Assembly (NCBI GenBank): GCA_015490795.1 | Contig: WFXD01000095.1 | Coordinates: forward strand, 1-44,175 | Origin: Gammaproteobacteria bacterium | GTDB taxonomy: Bacteria > Pseudomonadota > Gammaproteobacteria > Chromatiales > Chromatiaceae | Direction of reading: 5' to 3' | DNA length: 44,175 nt | Shown here: positions 23,785-33,699 of the stretch, piece after piece | How positions within the stretch are numbered: the first letter of the stretch is position 1 | Layout of the letters: each line of letters opens with the position of its first letter | The notes under the pieces: model-generated | Told to the model about the DNA's origin: nothing | The model's input: only the letters and a program-made list of their open reading frames with translations | Databases searched by the model: none | Position numbers and translations under genes: made by a program

Positions 23785-24462
23785 ATGAATATGGCCGATA
23801 ATGGCTTGCAGAACGACCTCTACAGAGAGGCTGCCCCGAAAAAGAGAAAAGCGAGCCCTCTTCCCAAGATTATCGTAATGCTGACGCTGGCTGGGGTCGT
23901 TGGCTTCTACCTCTTTTCCGACAACGAGTCTGCCAGGATCATCAACATGCCGGAAGGGGCCGCCCCGGCATCCAGCGTTATCCAGCCCACCCCTGCATCG
24001 GAATCAGCGCCGCAGGCCAAAGCCCCGGTTGCCACTCCGTCAGAGGCCCGGTCGGCCATACAGCCCAGAGAGAAGCCCGGCGATTTGGCCAGGGCGCTGA
24101 TTGCCGGAGTCAGGGCGAAAAAAGGGCCGGCCGACCTGAAACGGATTATGGAGTCAGCCGATGGGTTCAGAGCAAAGGGGATGCAGGCAGATGCCTACCT
24201 GCTCTACTTCTTTGCCGCCAGGCGGGGAGAGAGCCGTGCGGCACAGGTGTTGGCAAAGATGCATGACCCGGCCTATCACTCAGCGCAGGAGAGCATACTG
24301 GATCAGCCCGACCTGGTGCAGGCCTATAAGTGGTACCGGCAGGCGGCCAGAGGTGGCCAGCCCTCTGCCCAGAGAGCGCTGAACAGCTTCCGCGCCCAGG
24401 TGGAGCAGCTGGCAGCGGCTGGTGACAGAGAGGCAAAACAGCTGTATCTACAGTGGCAATAG
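23785..24462 (+). CDS. Membrane-anchored protein with Sel1/TPR-like helices
   Basis: This 225-residue protein has a cytoplasmic basic segment, one membrane helix at about 33-50, and a Pro/Ala-rich linker at about 60-105 that should span part of the periplasm. The helical region at about 110-225 is Sel1-like (AKGMQADAYLLYFFAARRGE, then LVQAYKWYRQAARGG). The start at 23785 has AAAGG upstream. It lies 13 bases before the VWA gene, making it the first gene of the VWA-ABC block. I know no named family; a scaffold or adaptor role is an inference from Sel1-type repeats. Confidence 0.78.
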   Translation: MNMADNGLQNDLYREAAPKKRKASPLPKIIVMLTLAGVVGFYLFSDNESARIINMPEGAAPASSVIQPTPASESAPQAKAPVATPSEARSAIQPREKPGDLARALIAGVRAKKGPADLKRIMESADGFRAKGMQADAYLLYFFAARRGESRAAQVLAKMHDPAYHSAQESILDQPDLVQAYKWYRQAARGGQPSAQRALNSFRAQVEQLAAAGDREAKQLYLQWQ

Positions 24463-24475
24463 GGGGGAGCGGATC

Positions 24476-26524
24476 ATGACCGATAGACGAACAGCGCTCA
24501 CTGCGGCATTGACCCTGATGATACTCTTCGGCGGAACCCTGCCCGCCTGGGCCGAGCGGCAGAAGCCGCTATTGATGCCGGGCAAGAGCACGCTCTACCA
24601 GCGCGTTCTGGCAAGGCCGGGGGCCATGCTGCACATCTCGGCAGGCTCCGCCCATGCGCTGCGCGAGATCAAACCCTTCAGCGTCTTCTATCTCTACGGT
24701 GAGCGCCAGATTGGCACCGAGAAGTGGATCAAGGTCGGCACCGACAGCCACGGCAACACCCAGGGGTGGGTGAAGAAAAAGCAGCTGATCCCCTGGAATC
24801 AGGTGCTTACCGTGGCCTTCCGCAACCCGGCCACGCAGAACCGGGTGCTGCTGTTCAAGGATCGGGAGGGGCTGAAAAAGCTGATTCAATCCAATGACCA
24901 GGCGGCCTACCAGCAGCTCTACCAACGGGCAGTAGCCGGGACACTGGACAAGGATTCACCCGTCATCGCCATCCAGCCCGAACGCCATGTCGATATTCAG
25001 GAGGATTTCTATCTGGTGCCTATCCAGCAGCATGAGGATATCTACCTGGGCAGCGAACAGGCAATGATGCTACAGGTCACCACTGTGCCACTGAAGGAGG
25101 CGCCACCCCCTGCGGCGCAAAAGCCGGTGGAGCAGAGCGCCGCCACCCCCGAAAAGAGGCCGCCACAAAGAGCCAGGCGCTTTCGCTCCGGCCTGGTCTT
25201 TGTCACCGACGCCACCAACTCGATGGGGCCCTATATCGACCGCACCCGCGAGGCGGTGCGCAAGGTCTACCGCGCCATCGACCAGGCCGGGCTAAAGGAT
25301 GAGGTCAGCTTCGGCCTGGTCGCCTATCGGGACAACCTCGGCGCCTCGCCCGACCTGGAGTATCTTGCACGCACCTTCGTCCCGCTCAAAGAGGGGACAG
25401 ACGCCAGCGCCTTCTTTCAGGGTGCCGCAGCCCTCACCCCGGCAAAGGTCTCAAGCCAGGACTTTATCGAGGATGCCTACGCCGGCATCAAGCGCGCCAT
25501 CAATGAGCTGGAGAGCGGCGATTATGCCGCGCGCTACGTGGTGCTGATCACCGATGCGGGGGCGCGCTCTGCTGATGACCCGCTCAGCAGCACCGGGCTG
25601 AGTGAGGATGAGCTGAGGGCGCTGGCGCTGGAGAAGGGGGTCTCCATCTGGGTGCTGCACCTGCGAACCCCCATAGGCCGCCCCAACCATGCCGCTGCTG
25701 CCCGGCAGTACCGGGCCATCTCCCAATATCCCGGCATTGGCGACTTCTACTACGGCGTCAAGATGGGCCGGGTGCAGGAGTTTGGCCGGGTGCTGGATGC
25801 GCTGGCCTCGCAGATCACCAGGCAGGTGCGCTCCGTGGTCGAGATGGAGCGGGCCAGGGCGCCCAGACCCGAGCCGGAGCTTGCCCCGGAGCCACTGCTG
25901 AATGAAGCGCCGGCAGCAGTGGACAACCAGCTGGCCGAGTTCCAGCAGAAGGTGGCAAAGCTGGGCTACGCCCTGCGCATGCGCTACCTGCAAGGCAGCC
26001 AGGGCGGGGCCGTGCCAGAGGTCTTCGACGCCTGGCTGGTGGATCGTGATTTTCAAAACCCAGCGCGCTCAACGCTGGATGTGCGCGTGCTGCTGACACG
26101 CAACCAGCTGAGCGATCTGCAATATGTGCTGAAGCAGGTGTTGATTGCCGCCGAGGACGGGCTGCTCTCACCGCGCAACTTTCTCAATGACCTGAAGAGC
26201 CTCTCTGCCACGCTGAGCCGCGACCCCGGCGAGATGCAGGGCAGCACCAGCGCCACCAGCGCGGCTGGCAGCAATCTGGCCGACCTGGGCTACATGCGTG
26301 AATACATTGAAGATCTGCCCTACACCGGCGAGGTGATGAACCTCTCACTGGAGAACTGGGCAGACTGGCCCGCCAGGCGCCAGCTAAAATTCACCCACCG
26401 GCTGGAGCGCAAGATCAGCTACTATCAGGCGCTGCACGACCACACCGACCTCTGGATCTCACTGGATGGCGGCCCGATAACCGGCGACTCCGTCTTCCCC
26501 GTCGCCCTGGAGATGCTGCCCTGA
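24476..26524 (+). CDS. Periplasmic VWA protein resembling the C-terminal region of T6SS kinase PpkA
   Basis: This 682-residue protein has a signal peptide ending near residue 26 (AWA-E). An SH3-like region lies at about 30-200 (TEKWIKVGTD, then QGWVKKKQL) and a Pro-rich linker at 205-235. The VWA domain at about 238-455 has the MIDAS-like D245-x-T-x-S249 in VTDATNSMGPYIDRTRE, then FGLVAYRDN, EDAYAGI, VVLITDAGAR, STGLSEDELR and HLRTP. A C-terminal helical region at about 480-682 has no family that I know. The VWA blocks match the extracytoplasmic VWA of PpkA, the Thr kinase of the TagQRST type VI system, but no kinase domain or membrane helix is present. GGGGAG precedes the ATG. Confidence 0.85.
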   Translation: MTDRRTALTAALTLMILFGGTLPAWAERQKPLLMPGKSTLYQRVLARPGAMLHISAGSAHALREIKPFSVFYLYGERQIGTEKWIKVGTDSHGNTQGWVKKKQLIPWNQVLTVAFRNPATQNRVLLFKDREGLKKLIQSNDQAAYQQLYQRAVAGTLDKDSPVIAIQPERHVDIQEDFYLVPIQQHEDIYLGSEQAMMLQVTTVPLKEAPPPAAQKPVEQSAATPEKRPPQRARRFRSGLVFVTDATNSMGPYIDRTREAVRKVYRAIDQAGLKDEVSFGLVAYRDNLGASPDLEYLARTFVPLKEGTDASAFFQGAAALTPAKVSSQDFIEDAYAGIKRAINELESGDYAARYVVLITDAGARSADDPLSSTGLSEDELRALALEKGVSIWVLHLRTPIGRPNHAAAARQYRAISQYPGIGDFYYGVKMGRVQEFGRVLDALASQITRQVRSVVEMERARAPRPEPELAPEPLLNEAPAAVDNQLAEFQQKVAKLGYALRMRYLQGSQGGAVPEVFDAWLVDRDFQNPARSTLDVRVLLTRNQLSDLQYVLKQVLIAAEDGLLSPRNFLNDLKSLSATLSRDPGEMQGSTSATSAAGSNLADLGYMREYIEDLPYTGEVMNLSLENWADWPARRQLKFTHRLERKISYYQALHDHTDLWISLDGGPITGDSVFPVALEMLP

Positions 26525-26574
26525 AGTATGCGGCCACCCAGATACCGAGTGGAAGCCTGACCGGAGACGAACAG

Positions 26575-27300
26575 GTGCTCATCTATCACCTGCGCGATCT
26601 GGTGATGACCCGCATGGCAGAAGGGGTCGAGTTTCGCCTCACCGTTCCCAGCCTGCAGATCTCCCTGGGCGAAAAGATCGCGCTGATCGGCCACAGCGGC
26701 TGCGGCAAAAGCACCCTGCTGGATATTCTGGCAATGATCCTGCGCCCCACCGGGGTCGGCGCATTCCGCTTCCGCCCGGAAAAGGAGGCGCCGCCTCTCG
26801 ATGTGGCAAAGGCCTGGTCGCAGCGGGATCTCAACTTTATGGGTGATTTGCGCAAGCACCGCATCGGCTACGTCATGCAGACCGGCGGGCTGCTCCCCTA
26901 TCTGACCGTGCGCGACAACATCAACCTCTCGCGCCAGCTGCTGGGGATGCCGGACGATGGCTCGGTCGAGGAGCTGGCAAAAAACCTGGGGATCGAGCGC
27001 CATCTCGGCAAACGCCCCGAGCTGCTGTCGACCGGAGAGCGGCAGCGAGTCGCCATCGGCCGGGCGCTGGCGCACCACCCCTCCATTGTCATTGCAGATG
27101 AACCCACCGCCTCGCTCGACCCCATCGCCGCCCGCAGGATCATGGCGCTGTTTGTCGAGCTGGTGGAGGAGATGCGCATCACCGTCATTATCGCCAGCCA
27201 CGACTGGGGTCACATCAAACAGCTGGGGCTGCGCCGGCTGGCGCACCGCACCAGCCAGAACAGCGCCGGCACCGTGACCGAAACCAGGGTTACAGGATGA
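26575..27300 (+). CDS. TagT/LolD-like ABC transporter ATPase
   Basis: This 241-residue ATP-binding subunit starts at a GTG with GGAG 8 bases upstream. It has Walker A GHSGCGKS (39-46), the Q loop at MQTGGLLPYL, the signature LSTGERQR (151-158), Walker B IVIADEPTASLD (171-182) and the switch His209 in ASHDW. It should energise the FtsX-like permease encoded next; the ATG of that gene overlaps this stop (ATGA). LolD, MacB and TagT are the closest types; the VWA neighbour favours TagT. The frame is open upstream into the VWA gene but has no better start. Confidence 0.9.
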   Translation: MLIYHLRDLVMTRMAEGVEFRLTVPSLQISLGEKIALIGHSGCGKSTLLDILAMILRPTGVGAFRFRPEKEAPPLDVAKAWSQRDLNFMGDLRKHRIGYVMQTGGLLPYLTVRDNINLSRQLLGMPDDGSVEELAKNLGIERHLGKRPELLSTGERQRVAIGRALAHHPSIVIADEPTASLDPIAARRIMALFVELVEEMRITVIIASHDWGHIKQLGLRRLAHRTSQNSAGTVTETRVTG

Positions 27301-28520
27301 GCAGCCCCATCCGAAAGATGCGCAACATCTTCAGACTGGCGCTGACCGACTATTTTTACGAGTGGCAGATCTCCAGCTGCTTCATCCTGGCGCTGGCCGC
27401 CGTGCTGGCGCCCATGATGATCCTCTTCGCCCTCAAGTTCGGCATCATCGGCAGCATGATGGAGCAGCTGATCGAAGACCCGCGCAACCGGGAGATCCGC
27501 CCGGTGGGGAGCGGCCACTATGACCCGGCATGGTTTCGCACCGTGCGGGCCAAACCCGAGGTGGCCTTCGTCATCCCGCGCACCCGAAGCCTGGCCGCCA
27601 CCATGCAGCTCAAAAGCAGCAGCGCCCCGCGCATCATCCCCACGGAGCTGATTCCAACCGCAGCCGGCGAGCCGCTGTTTCACAACAACATCACTGTACC
27701 CACCGGGCTACGGCAGATTGTGCTCTCTGAACCTGCTGCCAGAAAACTCAAGGTTGGCGTGGGTGACCGGGTCGATGGCAGCCTGAACCGCCGCCACAAC
27801 GGCCAGAGCGAGCGGGTGCATGTTGAGCTGACCGTGGTCGGCATCACGCCCCTTGCCGCATTTGCACGCGATGGTGCCTTTGTGCCGCTGGATCTTGTTG
27901 TCGCCACAGAGGATTTTCTCGATGGCCGTGCTGTCCCGCCGCTGGGCTGGCAGGGTGATCCGCCGCTTGCGGACGAGCGCAGCTTCCCCGGCTTCCGGCT
28001 CTATGCCAGCACCATCGACCACGTTGCCGCACTGCGCGATGGTCTGGCCGCCAGTGGCATCGAGGTGCGAACCCGCGCTGCCGACATCGACATTGTGCAG
28101 ACCATGGAGCAGCGATTGAGCGCCGTCTTCTGGTTTGTTGCCATTATTGGCCTGACCGGCTTCTCCCTCTCGCTGGGAGCCAATCTGTGGGCCAATGTGG
28201 ATCGAAAAAAGAGGGAGCTGAGCGTGTTGCGGCTGGTGGGGTTCCGCACATCGGATATTGTCTGGTTCCCGGTGCTGCAAGCGCTGCTGACCGGGGTGCT
28301 GGGCTGGCTGTTGGCCAGCCTGATCTACCTGGGCGTGGAGGCCAGCATCAACCGCATGCTGATCACCCAGGCAGAGGATGACAGCCCCATCTGCCGGCTG
28401 CTGCCGATACATTTTGAGATCGCCCTGGCATTTACCGTTGGCGCAGCTGTTCTGGCCGCAGCGCTTGGTGGTTTCCGGGCCGCACGCATCCAGCCCTCGG
28501 ATGGCCTGAGAGAGATCTGA
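27297..28520 (+). CDS. TagS/LolC-like FtsX-fold ABC permease
   Basis: This 407-residue inner-membrane protein has the MacB/FtsX layout. One helix is at about 27-50, a large periplasmic domain at about 52-270 and three further helices at about 277-298, 323-345 and 375-395. The cytoplasmic loop RKKRELSVLRLVGF after helix 2 and the RAARIQPSDGLREI end are typical. Such permeases do not pass solutes; they couple ATP use to movement of a periplasmic domain, to pull lipoproteins out of the membrane (LolCDE) or to signal. Only one permease gene is present, so a homodimer is likely. The stop overlaps the next ATG (TGATG). Confidence 0.9.
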   Translation: MSSPIRKMRNIFRLALTDYFYEWQISSCFILALAAVLAPMMILFALKFGIIGSMMEQLIEDPRNREIRPVGSGHYDPAWFRTVRAKPEVAFVIPRTRSLAATMQLKSSSAPRIIPTELIPTAAGEPLFHNNITVPTGLRQIVLSEPAARKLKVGVGDRVDGSLNRRHNGQSERVHVELTVVGITPLAAFARDGAFVPLDLVVATEDFLDGRAVPPLGWQGDPPLADERSFPGFRLYASTIDHVAALRDGLAASGIEVRTRAADIDIVQTMEQRLSAVFWFVAIIGLTGFSLSLGANLWANVDRKKRELSVLRLVGFRTSDIVWFPVLQALLTGVLGWLLASLIYLGVEASINRMLITQAEDDSPICRLLPIHFEIALAFTVGAAVLAAALGGFRAARIQPSDGLREI

Positions 28521-29167
28521 TGGGCACCTGGACCGGAAAGGGCATAGCGGCAGGCGTGCTCGGGATCGCTGTTTTCTCTATGGTTGGCGCGCTGCTGCTG
28601 ATGGATGCGCCACAAAAACCCCCACTCAAACAGACCGCTGAGGTTAAGCGCTCATCCTACCGGTCAAAGATTGTGCCGGTTGAAGAGGCCAGACCCATCA
28701 CAACAAAGGCGGCTGCTGTAACTACGGGGGTAAAAGCCCCGGCTCAGCTGTCCGGGGCCGATCCGGCAGTCAATGAGATGGCCAGAAAAAAAACCCCCGC
28801 ACTGTTAAAACTGGAGGAGCGCACATCAATAGGCACGGTAAAAAACGGCAGCTCCAGAGTCAAAGCGGTGGTGCCACAGATAACCACGCTGAAGTTAAAA
28901 AAGGCGACCACGTTTACATCGACAGGCGCTCTGCATAGCGCCTGGGCCATTCAATTGGAAGATTTTAGTGACAGTGAAAAGGCCACCCGTTTGAGAGACC
29001 GGCTGCAAAGTGCGGGCTTTGCCTCTTTCATTGAGACAGAGGAGGTTGATGGCCATGCCATGAGCCGCGTCTATGTTGGCCCGGAAAAAACCCGGCATGC
29101 GGCAAAAGAGGTTTTGGCGCAGCTGCAAAAAAGGCAGGGCATTAAAGGAACCGTAGTGGCGTATTAG
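28520..29167 (+). CDS. Membrane-anchored SPOR-domain-like protein
   Basis: This 215-residue protein has one N-terminal membrane helix (about 8-28) and a long Lys/Ala/Thr-rich linker (about 30-130). The C-terminal SPOR-like fold is at about 140-212: AWAIQLEDFSD, then RLRDRLQSAGFASFIE and SRVYVGPEKTRHAAKEVLAQL. SPOR domains bind denuded glycan strands of peptidoglycan, mostly at the division site. Its translational coupling to the permease suggests that the VWA-ABC complex contacts or senses the cell wall. The linker is long enough to reach into the peptidoglycan layer. Confidence 0.83.
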   Translation: MGTWTGKGIAAGVLGIAVFSMVGALLLMDAPQKPPLKQTAEVKRSSYRSKIVPVEEARPITTKAAAVTTGVKAPAQLSGADPAVNEMARKKTPALLKLEERTSIGTVKNGSSRVKAVVPQITTLKLKKATTFTSTGALHSAWAIQLEDFSDSEKATRLRDRLQSAGFASFIETEEVDGHAMSRVYVGPEKTRHAAKEVLAQLQKRQGIKGTVVAY

Positions 29168-29260: not shown

Positions 29261-32200
29261 GTGGGTAAGCTGCTAAAAATCAAAGGATTTATCCCCTTTA
29301 TCCTGATTATCTTCCTGAATGCCTTTGTTGATCTGGGGCATAAGGTTTTGATCCAGAACACCATCTTCAAGATCTACGATGGCCAGTTCCAGATCATACT
29401 GACAGCCGTTGTAAACGGATTGATCCTGCTCCCGTTTGTGCTGCTCTTTAGTCCGGCCGGGTTTTTTTCTGACCGTTACCGCAAGCCGCTGATTATGAAG
29501 ATCTCCGCGGCATGTGCGGTGGCGCTGACACTACTGATCACACTCTCTTACTATAATGGCTGGTTCCAGTTTGCCTTTGCCATGACCTTTCTGCTGGCGG
29601 TGCAGAGCGCCTTTTACTCCCCGGCAAAATATGGCTATATCAAAGAGCTGGCAGGCAAGGGGCAGTTGACCGCCGCCAATGCCTTGGTGCAGGCACTGAC
29701 GATCACCGCCATCCTTTCGGGCATATTTCTCTTCTCCATATTGTTTGAGCACCATCTGGCCGGCGTTCCCTACAGCAATGAGGCCGAGCTGATTCAGGCC
29801 TTTGCCCCCATTGGCTGGCTGCTGGTGGGTTGCGCCCTGTTGGAGTTTGGGGCGACCCTGCTGCTGCCATCCGGCGGGCTGGAACAGCCAGGGCTTCGCT
29901 TCGATTTTAAGCAGTATACAACCGGCCACTATCTTCGAGATAACTTTGGCCGCCTCATGGCAAACCGGGTGATCTGGCTCTCAATCATCGGGCTCTCACT
30001 CTTCTGGGGCATCGCCCAGGTGGTGCTGGCCGCCTTCCCGGCCTTTGCCAAAGAGACATTGGGTGAGACCAACACGGTTGTCATCCAGGGGCTTCTGGCC
30101 TGTAATGGCCTGGGCATTATTCTGGGTTCCGTGCTGGCAGGCAGCGCATCACGCGGGCATATCGAAACCGGCCTGATTCCGCTTGGTGCGCTGGGTATTG
30201 TTACAGCACTGTTATTGATCCCGCATGCCACATCGGCCATCCTGCTGGGGCTGCTTTTTATCGGGCTGGGCACGGCGGGCGGCATCTTCATTGTGCCACT
30301 CAATGCCCTGATCCAGTTTCATGCCAGGGATGAGCAGCTGGGGGTGATACTGGCAGGCAACAACTGGGTGCAGAATGTTGTCATGCTTGGCTTTTTAAGC
30401 CTGACAGTGCTCTTTGCCATCTACGGTCTCAGCAGTGTGGGGCTCTTCTACCTGCTGGCTGTTGTTGGTGTGATCGGTGCCTGCTATACGGTCTGTCAGC
30501 TGCCGCAATCGCTGGTGCGATTCCTCATCCGCAGCATCATCAGCAGCCGCTACAATATCCAGGTTTTGGGGTTTAACAATCTGCCCGGTCAGGGCGCTGT
30601 GCTGATGCTGGGAAACCACATCAGCTGGCTCGACTGGGCCATTATCCAGATTGCCTGCCCACGCCCGGTACGCTTTGTGATGCACCGTGGAATCTACCAG
30701 CGCTGGTATCTAAAATGGTTTTTGGATGCCTTCGGGGTGGTGCCCATTGCCGCCGGACACAGCAAGGCCGCACTCAAACAGATCAATGAGCTGCTGAAAA
30801 AAGGCGAGGCCGTCTGTCTCTTCCCCGAAGGATCCATCAGCCGCAACGGCCAGCTCGGCACCCTTAAGCCCGGTTATGAGCGTACAGTGGAGGGGGTCGA
30901 CGGGGTTATTCTGCCCTTCTATCTGCGAGGGCTTTGGGGCAGCCGCTTCTCACGCTCCAGTGAAAAACTGCAAGAGAACCGCAGCAGCCGCAGGCGGCGG
31001 GATGTCATCGTGGCCTTTGGCAGGCCACTGGCTATGCATACAGCTGCGCATGAGCTGAAGCAGCATCTGTTTGATCTCTCCATCGACGCCTGGGATGAGT
31101 ACACCAAAACCCTCGACCCCATCCCGCTGGCCTGGATACGCACCGCCAGACAGGTGGGGCGCAATAGCGCTATCGCAGAGACAGGCTCCGCTGCTGTGCT
31201 CTCTGGTTATGGCGTGCTGACCGCTGTCCTCGCCTTTTCACGCCTGATCCAGGGGCGCAGCCCAGAGCAGAATATCGGCCTGCTGTTGCCCACCAGCATG
31301 GCAGGCCTGATCATCAACATGGCCACCCTGCTGCTGGGAAAAACCGGGGTCAATCTGAACTACACGGCCAACCCGCAGGCACTGCTTGCCGCAATCGATG
31401 CCGCAGAGATCAAGAGCATCTACAGCTCCAGGCGCTTGCTTAAAAAGCTACAGCAGCGCGGCATGGAGCTGGATGAGCTGCTCAGCGGGGTAGCGGTGCA
31501 CTATCTGGAGGATATGAAGGATGAGATCAGCACCACCCGCAAAATCTCATACATGACCCTGTCGGCCATCCTGCCCGCCGGGCTGCTCTATCGGCTGTTT
31601 GGAGTGCGGTGCGATATTGAACAGCCTGCCGCCATCCTCTTCTCGAGTGGCAGCGAAGGCAGCCCCAAAGGCATCATGCTGAGTCACCGCAACATCATGG
31701 CCAATATCAAACAGGTATCGGATGTGCTGGACAGACGGGATGACGATGTGGTCATGGCCACGCTGCCCCTGTTCCATGCCTTTGGCCTTACGGTGACCGG
31801 GCTGATGCCGCTGGTTGAGGGGATACCGGCCATTCTGCACCCCGACCCAACCGATGCGCTGGCGATATCAAAGGCCGTGGCTAAAAACAGTGCGACGATA
31901 TTTTGTGGAACCTCTACCTTTTTGCGGCTGTTTAACCGCAACAGCCACATCCATCCATTGATGCTGGACTCCCTGCGGCTGGTCATCGCCGGTGCAGAGC
32001 GACTCAACCCCGAGGTGCGGGATGGCTTCAAATTAAAGTTCAACAAAGAGATCTACGAAGGCTATGGCGCAACGGAAACCACCCCGGTTGCCAGCGTCAA
32101 CGTACCTGACCGGATCGCCCCGGATGACTGGTCGATACAGCTTGGCAACAAGCCGGGAACCGTTGGCATGCCACTGCCCGGTGGCAGCTTTCGCATCGTT

Positions 32201-32710
32201 GACCCGCTGACACTGGAAACCTGTCCAGTTGGTGAAGATGGACTCATTCTGTTTGGTGGCACCCAGATCATGCTGGGCTACCTCAATGATCCAGAGAGAA
32301 CCAGAGAGGCTGTTATTGAGCTGGATGGCAGGCGCTGGTACAAAACGGGCGATAAAGGGCATCTGGACAGGGATGGCTTTTTGGTAATCGTGGATCGCTA
32401 CTCCCGCTTTGCAAAGATAGGCGGAGAGATGGTCAGCCTCGGAGCCGTTGAGACCGCCATCAGCAAACAGCTGCCGGAAGGGGTGGAGATACTGGCAACC
32501 CAAATTCCCGACGGAACGCGAGGTGAAAAGATTGTACTGCTGGTGGCAGGTGAGGTGGCGAGCGATGAGATCAAGGCGCTGATTGAGCAATCGGAACTCA
32601 GCCCGCTCATGCGCCCTGCAATGCTGCTGAAAGTAGATGAGATTCCCAAACTCGGCAGCGGGAAAAGTGACTTTGGCCGGGCCAGGCAGATTGCACAGGA
32701 GGCCCGGTAA
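29261..32710 (+). CDS. LplT-PlsC-acyl-ACP synthetase fusion (Aas-type phospholipid repair)
   Basis: This 1149-residue protein joins three parts. Residues 1-420 are an LplT-like major facilitator with about 12 helices. Residues 430-630 are a PlsC acyltransferase with GNHISWLDW (NHx4D at about 450) and FPEGSISRNG (about 522). Residues 660-1149 are an AMP-forming acyl synthetase with SSGSEGSPKG (about 794), YGATETTPV and YKTGDKGHLDRDGF. LplT imports lysophospholipids and Aas re-acylates them at the inner face of the membrane, so this fusion should do both. The start is GTG at 29261 with a weak ribosome site. The gene is 93 bases after the SPOR gene and overlaps the amidohydrolase gene (TAATG). 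Confidence 0.93.
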   Translation: MGKLLKIKGFIPFILIIFLNAFVDLGHKVLIQNTIFKIYDGQFQIILTAVVNGLILLPFVLLFSPAGFFSDRYRKPLIMKISAACAVALTLLITLSYYNGWFQFAFAMTFLLAVQSAFYSPAKYGYIKELAGKGQLTAANALVQALTITAILSGIFLFSILFEHHLAGVPYSNEAELIQAFAPIGWLLVGCALLEFGATLLLPSGGLEQPGLRFDFKQYTTGHYLRDNFGRLMANRVIWLSIIGLSLFWGIAQVVLAAFPAFAKETLGETNTVVIQGLLACNGLGIILGSVLAGSASRGHIETGLIPLGALGIVTALLLIPHATSAILLGLLFIGLGTAGGIFIVPLNALIQFHARDEQLGVILAGNNWVQNVVMLGFLSLTVLFAIYGLSSVGLFYLLAVVGVIGACYTVCQLPQSLVRFLIRSIISSRYNIQVLGFNNLPGQGAVLMLGNHISWLDWAIIQIACPRPVRFVMHRGIYQRWYLKWFLDAFGVVPIAAGHSKAALKQINELLKKGEAVCLFPEGSISRNGQLGTLKPGYERTVEGVDGVILPFYLRGLWGSRFSRSSEKLQENRSSRRRRDVIVAFGRPLAMHTAAHELKQHLFDLSIDAWDEYTKTLDPIPLAWIRTARQVGRNSAIAETGSAAVLSGYGVLTAVLAFSRLIQGRSPEQNIGLLLPTSMAGLIINMATLLLGKTGVNLNYTANPQALLAAIDAAEIKSIYSSRRLLKKLQQRGMELDELLSGVAVHYLEDMKDEISTTRKISYMTLSAILPAGLLYRLFGVRCDIEQPAAILFSSGSEGSPKGIMLSHRNIMANIKQVSDVLDRRDDDVVMATLPLFHAFGLTVTGLMPLVEGIPAILHPDPTDALAISKAVAKNSATIFCGTSTFLRLFNRNSHIHPLMLDSLRLVIAGAERLNPEVRDGFKLKFNKEIYEGYGATETTPVASVNVPDRIAPDDWSIQLGNKPGTVGMPLPGGSFRIVDPLTLETCPVGEDGLILFGGTQIMLGYLNDPERTREAVIELDGRRWYKTGDKGHLDRDGFLVIVDRYSRFAKIGGEMVSLGAVETAISKQLPEGVEILATQIPDGTRGEKIVLLVAGEVASDEIKALIEQSELSPLMRPAMLLKVDEIPKLGSGKSDFGRARQIAQEAR

Positions 32711-33699
32711 TGCGCACTGTGGATATCCACAGTCACCTTCTGAACCCGGATGTCAGATTCGATCGCCTGTATGACAAAATCACCATCCGTTTTTTTGCCA
32801 AAAAACTGGGGGTTGATCCGGCGCAATTGCAGCGTGACCCTTATGGCACCTTTGTCACATCCATGGCAAAAAATATCGCCCAGTCTGAATATCTGGAGAG
32901 GGCCTGCATCTTTGGCGTGGACAGCCGCCTGGACAGAGCGGGCAGAGAGATTGACAGAGACAGCACCATCTGCGCAATGACCCGCAGTGTGGTTGAGGTT
33001 GCAGCCCGCTACCCGAATCTGTTCATCCCCTTTATGTCGATCAATCCGCGGCGGCGCAATGCGCTGGATCTTATTGATGAATATGTTGGGCAAGGCTGCC
33101 GGGGGGCAAAATTTCTACAGAACTACTGGCGGGTTGATCTCAATGACCGATGCTTTGTTCCCTATTATGAAAAACTGAAATCACACGACCTGCCACTGAT
33201 CATACATATAGGTAGCGAATACAGTATTGATTCTGATGTGCGCTATGAGAGAGCCGATATGCTCAGGCTGCCGCTGGAGACGGGGCTGACCGTGATTGCC
33301 GCACACATGGGGCTGGGGCGCATCAGTCACAAGCTGCGTTTTTGGCGAAACCTGAGCAGAAACCCCAAAACCTTTGATGAGGACTATTTCACCCTGCTGG
33401 GCATGCTGCAAAGTTACGCCAATCTGTATGCCGACATCTCTGCCATACTTGTACCGCTCCGGGCCAGGGCGCTTCGGCATCTGTCACAACAGCAGGAGAT
33501 TCACCACAAACTGCTGTTTGGCACGGACTATCCTGTTCCTTTTACCATTCGCTTTAATACCCACGACCTCTCATCAGCAGAGAGCCGTCGTATCGATGCC
33601 ATCAGCAACCCTTTTGATCGCTATGCCCAAACGATACTGGCCTACTTTCCAGAGGAGAACCCGCTCTATACCAACTACAAAAAAATCCTGTCGGGTTAA
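32710..33699 (+). CDS. Amidohydrolase-2 family metal-dependent hydrolase
   Basis: This 329-residue TIM-barrel hydrolase has DIHSHL (His7, His9), GAKF with a conserved Lys, His in IIHIGSEY, His in AAHMGLG and the Asp in LFGTDYPVPF, the metal and catalytic set of the Amidohydro_2 family. It should be cytoplasmic because no signal peptide is visible. Its start overlaps the stop of the phospholipid repair fusion, which suggests a related substrate, perhaps a breakdown product of lipid head groups; this is an inference. It converges with the next gene after 4 bases. Confidence 0.88.
   Translation: MRTVDIHSHLLNPDVRFDRLYDKITIRFFAKKLGVDPAQLQRDPYGTFVTSMAKNIAQSEYLERACIFGVDSRLDRAGREIDRDSTICAMTRSVVEVAARYPNLFIPFMSINPRRRNALDLIDEYVGQGCRGAKFLQNYWRVDLNDRCFVPYYEKLKSHDLPLIIHIGSEYSIDSDVRYERADMLRLPLETGLTVIAAHMGLGRISHKLRFWRNLSRNPKTFDEDYFTLLGMLQSYANLYADISAILVPLRARALRHLSQQQEIHHKLLFGTDYPVPFTIRFNTHDLSSAESRRIDAISNPFDRYAQTILAYFPEENPLYTNYKKILSG

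Follow-up and report, generated by a model that had tools for sequence, protein, structure and literature searches.

Four genes of the window encode an X-VWA-T-S module, which we interpret, at a probability of about 0.5, as a vertically maintained inner-membrane machine for ATP-driven envelope sensing or actuation with a periplasmic output. The window is the whole stretch of DNA that was analysed (44,175 nucleotides), and it makes up the entire contig C95 of a 2.76 Mb genome (MAG) that is 98.85% complete. The closest described system is the TagQRST-PpkA pathway of P. aeruginosa, which responds to outer-membrane damage (PMC11881912); a VWA domain has been noted in the extracellular region of PpkA (PMC3224232).

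Gene layout, conserved unit and distribution

Five genes are packed on the plus strand (Table 1), and all of the frames listed by the sequence-only reading (Sel1-type, SH3-VWA, ATPase, permease and SPOR) are present. The spacing is 13 bp between X and the VWA gene and 50 bp between the VWA and ATPase genes, and the ATPase and permease genes overlap by 4 bp and the permease and SPOR genes by 1 bp. Since the frames stay uninterrupted in dozens of relatives (identity 52-92%), they are real genes. Pfam matches were obtained for ABC_tran (E = 2.4e-26), FtsX (4.6e-12) and SPOR (1.9e-14), and those for VWA_2 (1.3e-3) and Sel1 (9e-3) lie under the Pfam curated cut-offs; no NCBIfam equivalog was found for any of the five proteins. 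On the 3' side of the SPOR gene, at 29261-33699, a fused LplT-acyltransferase-acyl-ACP ligase gene (1,149 aa) and an amidohydrolase gene overlap head to tail, and this neighbourhood is not kept in relatives.

Table 1. Features of the module in the window
Feature	Position	Strand	Basis or remark
X: bitopic membrane protein, 225 aa	23785..24462	+	Sel1-like periplasmic domain
Periplasmic SH3-like/VWA protein, 682 aa	24476..26524	+	homology with the extracytoplasmic region of PpkA across residues 28-682
VWA domain inside the 682-aa protein, residues about 238-440	25187..25795	+	
T: TagT/LolD-like ABC ATPase, 241 aa	26575..27300	+	ABC_tran match, motifs
S: TagS-like FtsX-fold (type VII) permease, 407 aa	27297..28520	+	FtsX match, model
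SPOR-domain membrane protein, 215 aa, accessory	28520..29167	+	SPOR match

A relative of the VWA protein is present in 124 of the 195 genomes of the window's order, and 74 of the 195 carry the window's own type (type A, called at about 51% identity or more), so the stand-alone state is not rare. Among the named relatives are Sedimenticola, Ca. Thiodiazotropha, symbionts of tubeworms and Olavius, and Methylomonas-assigned MAGs, and a class-wide sample added several further families. Across 83 type-A loci, X lies upstream of the VWA gene in 72 of 75 cases and T and S directly follow it in 64 of 68; the three type-A loci lacking X are AAA-VWA fusions. TagR, TagQ, Srf, kinase, PppA and TssM genes occur in none of the 83. 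The SPOR gene was found in the window, L057 and L059 only; L058, which belongs to the same genus, lacks it, and so do other genera. In the neighbourhood survey, the order VWA-ATPase-permease-SPOR named by the sequence-only reading thus holds for VWA-T-S but not for SPOR, which was rejected as a core component on account of its restriction to part of one genus; the conserved unit is X-VWA-T-S.

The genes flanking type-A modules are clade-specific (a housekeeping operon in one subclade, GGDEF-EAL on the 5' side in Ca. Thiodiazotropha and, for the window, LplT-Aas) and none is widely shared. In L121 (4168-13260) and about 14 similar loci, all of one subclade, the module sits inside lnt-leuS-lptE(like)-[module]-holA-proA-nadD, where lptE is assigned mainly by position, with a weak NCBIfam match. 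A membrane GGDEF-EAL gene stands just 5' of X in L100 (4455-6695) and other Ca. Thiodiazotropha loci. A distant module in L092 (1-20000; about 30% identity) has two tandem VWA proteins, and the related loci L091 and L093 have a protein of about 2,100 aa upstream.

No TssC and no TssM/IcmF were found in the window's own genome at its 98.85% completeness, and kinase, TagR, TagQ and T6SS genes are missing from the locus, so the stand-alone character described earlier is confirmed, and the PpkA-type kinase and T6SS cluster that might have lain just outside the window has no TssC or TssM counterpart in this genome. TssC is present in 29 of 74 type-A genomes and in 48 of 121 others (odds ratio 0.98, p = 1.0), and type A therefore occurs independently of the T6SS; dependence on a T6SS is ruled out by the whole-genome search together with this co-occurrence test. 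A search of the genome for TagR returned nothing beyond generic FGE-sulfatase domain proteins, which are TagR-like at the domain level only, and TagQ was found neither at the window locus nor in the 83 type-A relatives. SrfB and SrfC are missing at the locus, and SrfB has no match in the own genome, where the model also matched no control genome and does match the SrfB of L016. Anti-phage defence was considered and rejected, since the PADLOC matches were limited to generic ones for ATPases and kinases, with none for X, VWA or S.

Homology to PpkA loci and exchangeable heads

In a search of 299 genomes across the phylum, ten near-full-length relatives of the VWA protein were found besides the query, four with an N-terminal kinase and six kinase-less. 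The window protein aligns via residues 28-682 (start at 28/29) with the PpkA-type frames at 36-39% identity (E = 5e-116 to 2e-104), and other VWA proteins align only across a short VWA stretch, with E around 1e-5. The kinase-fused relatives have open frames of 1,017-1,189 aa, and their four genes adjoin TssM, TagF and the PP2C phosphatase PppA and are followed by T, S and TagR, which is the PpkA locus; the TssM of L022 scores 1,363 bits to TIGR03348. The likeness to the extracytoplasmic VWA of PpkA proposed in the sequence-only reading therefore extends from end to end, and the grouping with PpkA VWA domains, on which that reading had staked its claim beforehand, is what was found. The window protein has no kinase domain; it has an N-terminal signal peptide (PAWA-ER, by inspection), no further TM segment, a VWA domain with a DxTxS MIDAS and a conserved C-terminal domain with the terminus LP. 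Nearly all family members end in LP or MP (26489-26521 in the window), and the invariance of the last proline suggests that the C-terminus may be functional. Its AlphaFold model (mean pLDDT 81) matches integrin I-domains and VWF A-domains, and a sequence search of solved structures returned no homologue.

The ABC pair corresponds to TagT and TagS, as had been suggested, by homology and by the VWA-T-S order shared with PpkA loci. Compared with the pairs beside PpkA, the ATPase is 46% and the permease 40-43% identical, and the gene order is the same. In T, the Walker A, signature, Walker B and H-loop motifs are all intact, and it appears to be a competent ATPase of the LolD type. S has four TM segments around a large LolE/MacB-like periplasmic domain, and its AlphaFold model (mean pLDDT 86) matches LolCDE, MacB, YtrF, BceAB and FtsEX, which are type VII ABC transporters, the best matches being lipoprotein-bound LolCDE and MacB. 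The predicted fold and topology of S agree with a type VII mechanotransmission ABC. Membership in LolCDE was rejected (LolD 120 bits against a cut-off of 308, lolCE 21 against 362, with genuine LolC/E elsewhere in the genome), as was membership in FtsEX (FtsE 118 against 265, FtsX 13 against 255).

X consists of a cytosolic tail of about 24 aa, one TM helix, a linker and a periplasmic Sel1-like domain, in which an insert follows the pattern DP...(P/A)(D/N/S)xxxAxxWY; the window protein is the headless form of the kinase-X and AAA-X proteins. In the frames of 131 loci, the type-A X profile matches the proteins in the position that corresponds to X, both kinases (E = 3e-22 to 3e-15) and X proteins of the Srf type (6e-28 to 4e-4), as well as the TagR-like protein of L085; unrelated proteins gave nothing below 0.3, and three column-shuffled profiles gave nothing below 0.2. 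Because the profile also gives 41 bits with an unrelated classical Sel1 protein encoded in the own genome, the similarity is partly a generic Sel1 repeat signal. Of 110 X proteins, 90 carry the insert motif, as does 1 of about 9,500 other frames; the Sel1 control lacks it. In kinase-X loci, a kinase-TM-Sel1 protein lies immediately 5' of the secreted VWA, which is followed by T, S and TagR. Of the proposal that Sel1 and SPOR proteins take the place of the missing kinase and its partners, the Sel1 part holds, the X domain being homologous to the C-terminal part of this kinase-TM-Sel1 protein at the same position; SPOR as a core part does not. In L085 (5250-6923), a TagR-like FGE-sulfatase protein with a C-terminal X-type Sel1 domain adjoins an X-VWA-T-S set.

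The cytosolic heads move between X and VWA. The X of L147 has an AAA_22 head, and in L150, L152 and L162, which lack X, VWA itself bears a homologous AAA_22 head as a fusion (E = 1e-37 and 9e-26 between the heads of L147 X and L162/L150 VWA). PpkA has the same arrangement as the AAA-VWA fusion, but with a kinase head. Since two unrelated head types each occur on X or on VWA according to lineage, we treat X and VWA as partners; on these comparisons X-VWA is a predicted platform across the inner membrane with exchangeable cytosolic heads, and T-S is its constant companion. The AAA_22 heads (L147:6212-7975; L150:6813-9920; L162:2340-5507) are ExeA/XrtA-associated-like, and T and S are divergently transcribed in L150, L152 and L162.

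In trees of concatenated VWA, T and S (FastTree and IQ-TREE, with the root placed on the most distant group), the type-A modules form one clade with the AAA-headed members nested within it (FastTree 1.00; SH-aLRT 100), apart from the PpkA-, SrfBC- and kinase-X-linked modules. The AAA-headed modules (L147; L162/L150) are sisters. PpkA and kinase-X each form a clade, and the tree leaves the backbone order relative to Srf and type A unresolved. The description of the module as an ancestor or spin-off of the T6SS sensor is thus unsupported, with type A a clade of its own and the basal order unresolved. As TagR occurs in every other group, type A most likely lost it.

Proposed mechanism and competing explanations

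In the proposed mechanism, ATP hydrolysis by T would make the periplasmic domain of S pass through a conformational cycle, and this movement may act on a VWA-X assembly that senses or reshapes the state of the outer membrane or wall. Because the window X is headless and the window VWA has no cytosolic part, the output of type A would most likely stay in the periplasm, as an actuator or a reset. The optional SPOR protein could direct this output to septal peptidoglycan in the window's genus. Triggering of assembly in P. aeruginosa needs TagQ and TagR, and the part that TagS/TagT play there is only a modulatory one (PMC6657622), so a form without TagQ and TagR may sense something else.

The structural matches also suit a different task, in which T-S would extract or export a lipoprotein or lipid in the manner of LolCDE/MacB, with VWA-X serving it as receptor or chaperone in the periplasm. 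The permease model is nearest to lipoprotein-bound LolCDE and MacB, the ATPase is nearest to the LolD/FtsE profiles, and one subclade has the module directly 3' of an LptE-like lipoprotein gene. However, another locus of the own genome encodes a genuine LolC/E permease, the kinase and AAA+ heads of related modules suit signalling better than transport, and no conserved substrate gene lies nearby, so substrate handling is unlikely. Those same heads, borne by homologous X and VWA proteins, would fit inward signalling in trans, with the short tail of X or T-S recruiting a cytosolic kinase or other output protein encoded elsewhere; the own genome does encode a soluble Ser/Thr kinase-PP2C pair on contig C68 (L177:2417-4224). 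This pair, however, adjoins rph- and rdgB-like genes unlinked to the module, its kinase is only 23-26% identical to the X-kinase heads, and the tail of X, besides being short, shows no conservation within type A, all of which make recruitment in trans rather improbable.

Homology and synteny with PpkA-TagT-TagS would be expected, too, if the module were the relic of a lost T6SS regulatory locus. Type A is, however, its own clade, intact in many genera, and its presence is not tied to TssC; a relic is therefore very hard to credit. The vertically maintained machine with periplasmic output is the reading that we prefer. More broadly, and tentatively, TagT-TagS-VWA may be a general envelope machine with an X/VWA platform to which alternative cytosolic outputs can be fitted, be it a kinase, an AAA+ ATPase, Srf proteins or no output at all. 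The T6SS damage sensor would then be one specialised branch, and the headless branch of the window would perform an ATP-driven task wholly within the periplasm.

Significance and comparison with known systems

TagT-TagS-VWA modules occur in many gammaproteobacterial families and some Alphaproteobacteria, often without a T6SS. TagQRST has been stated to be restricted to Pseudomonas (PMC6082577, 2018), and for T, S and VWA our survey disagrees. SrfABC with TagQRST-PpkA neighbourhoods lacking a T6SS were reported earlier in host-associated Deltaproteobacteria (PMC3608642, 2013). In the open-access literature searched, we found neither the headless X-VWA-T-S module nor exchangeable heads described. 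The T6SS sensor is thus one member of a larger family in which lineages differ by exchange of the output part, and a common, unstudied envelope system can now be named for chemosynthetic symbionts and their relatives (Ca. Thiodiazotropha, tubeworm and Olavius symbionts). A headless X with VWA, T and S is a natural system that isolates the question of what TagS/TagT contribute to T6SS activation, and because kinase and AAA+ heads are exchanged between X and VWA, the way in which the sensor spans the inner membrane can be cast as a physical model open to test.

The window shares with the PpkA-TagT-TagS-TagR-TagQ pathway of the Pseudomonas H1-T6SS the homologous SH3-VWA region and the VWA-ATPase-permease order. 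It differs in lacking the kinase head, TagR, TagQ and T6SS genes, in having X, and in a VWA protein that has a signal peptide where PpkA has a TM anchor. Kinase-X modules (L079, L080, L083, L084 and L086) likewise have the X periplasmic domain directly 5' of a VWA with a signal peptide, and T and S behind it; unlike the window, they carry a Ser/Thr kinase head on X, TagR after the module and, in several, a TagQ-like protein. Srf-type loci (e.g. L016, L018, L168 and L174) combine SrfB and SrfC (Pfam E = 0) with an X-like protein, after which come VWA, T, S, TagR and lipoproteins. They resemble the window in the kinase-less VWA, T, S and the X-like protein with a Sel1 domain, whereas the window lacks SrfB, SrfC, TagR, TagQ and the cytosolic domain of about 190 aa of Srf-type X. 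Finally, LolCDE, MacB and FtsEX have the permease fold and ATPase family of the window T-S pair in common with it; however, they lack VWA and X partners, and the window pair falls below the curated cut-offs for LolD, LolC/E and FtsE/X.
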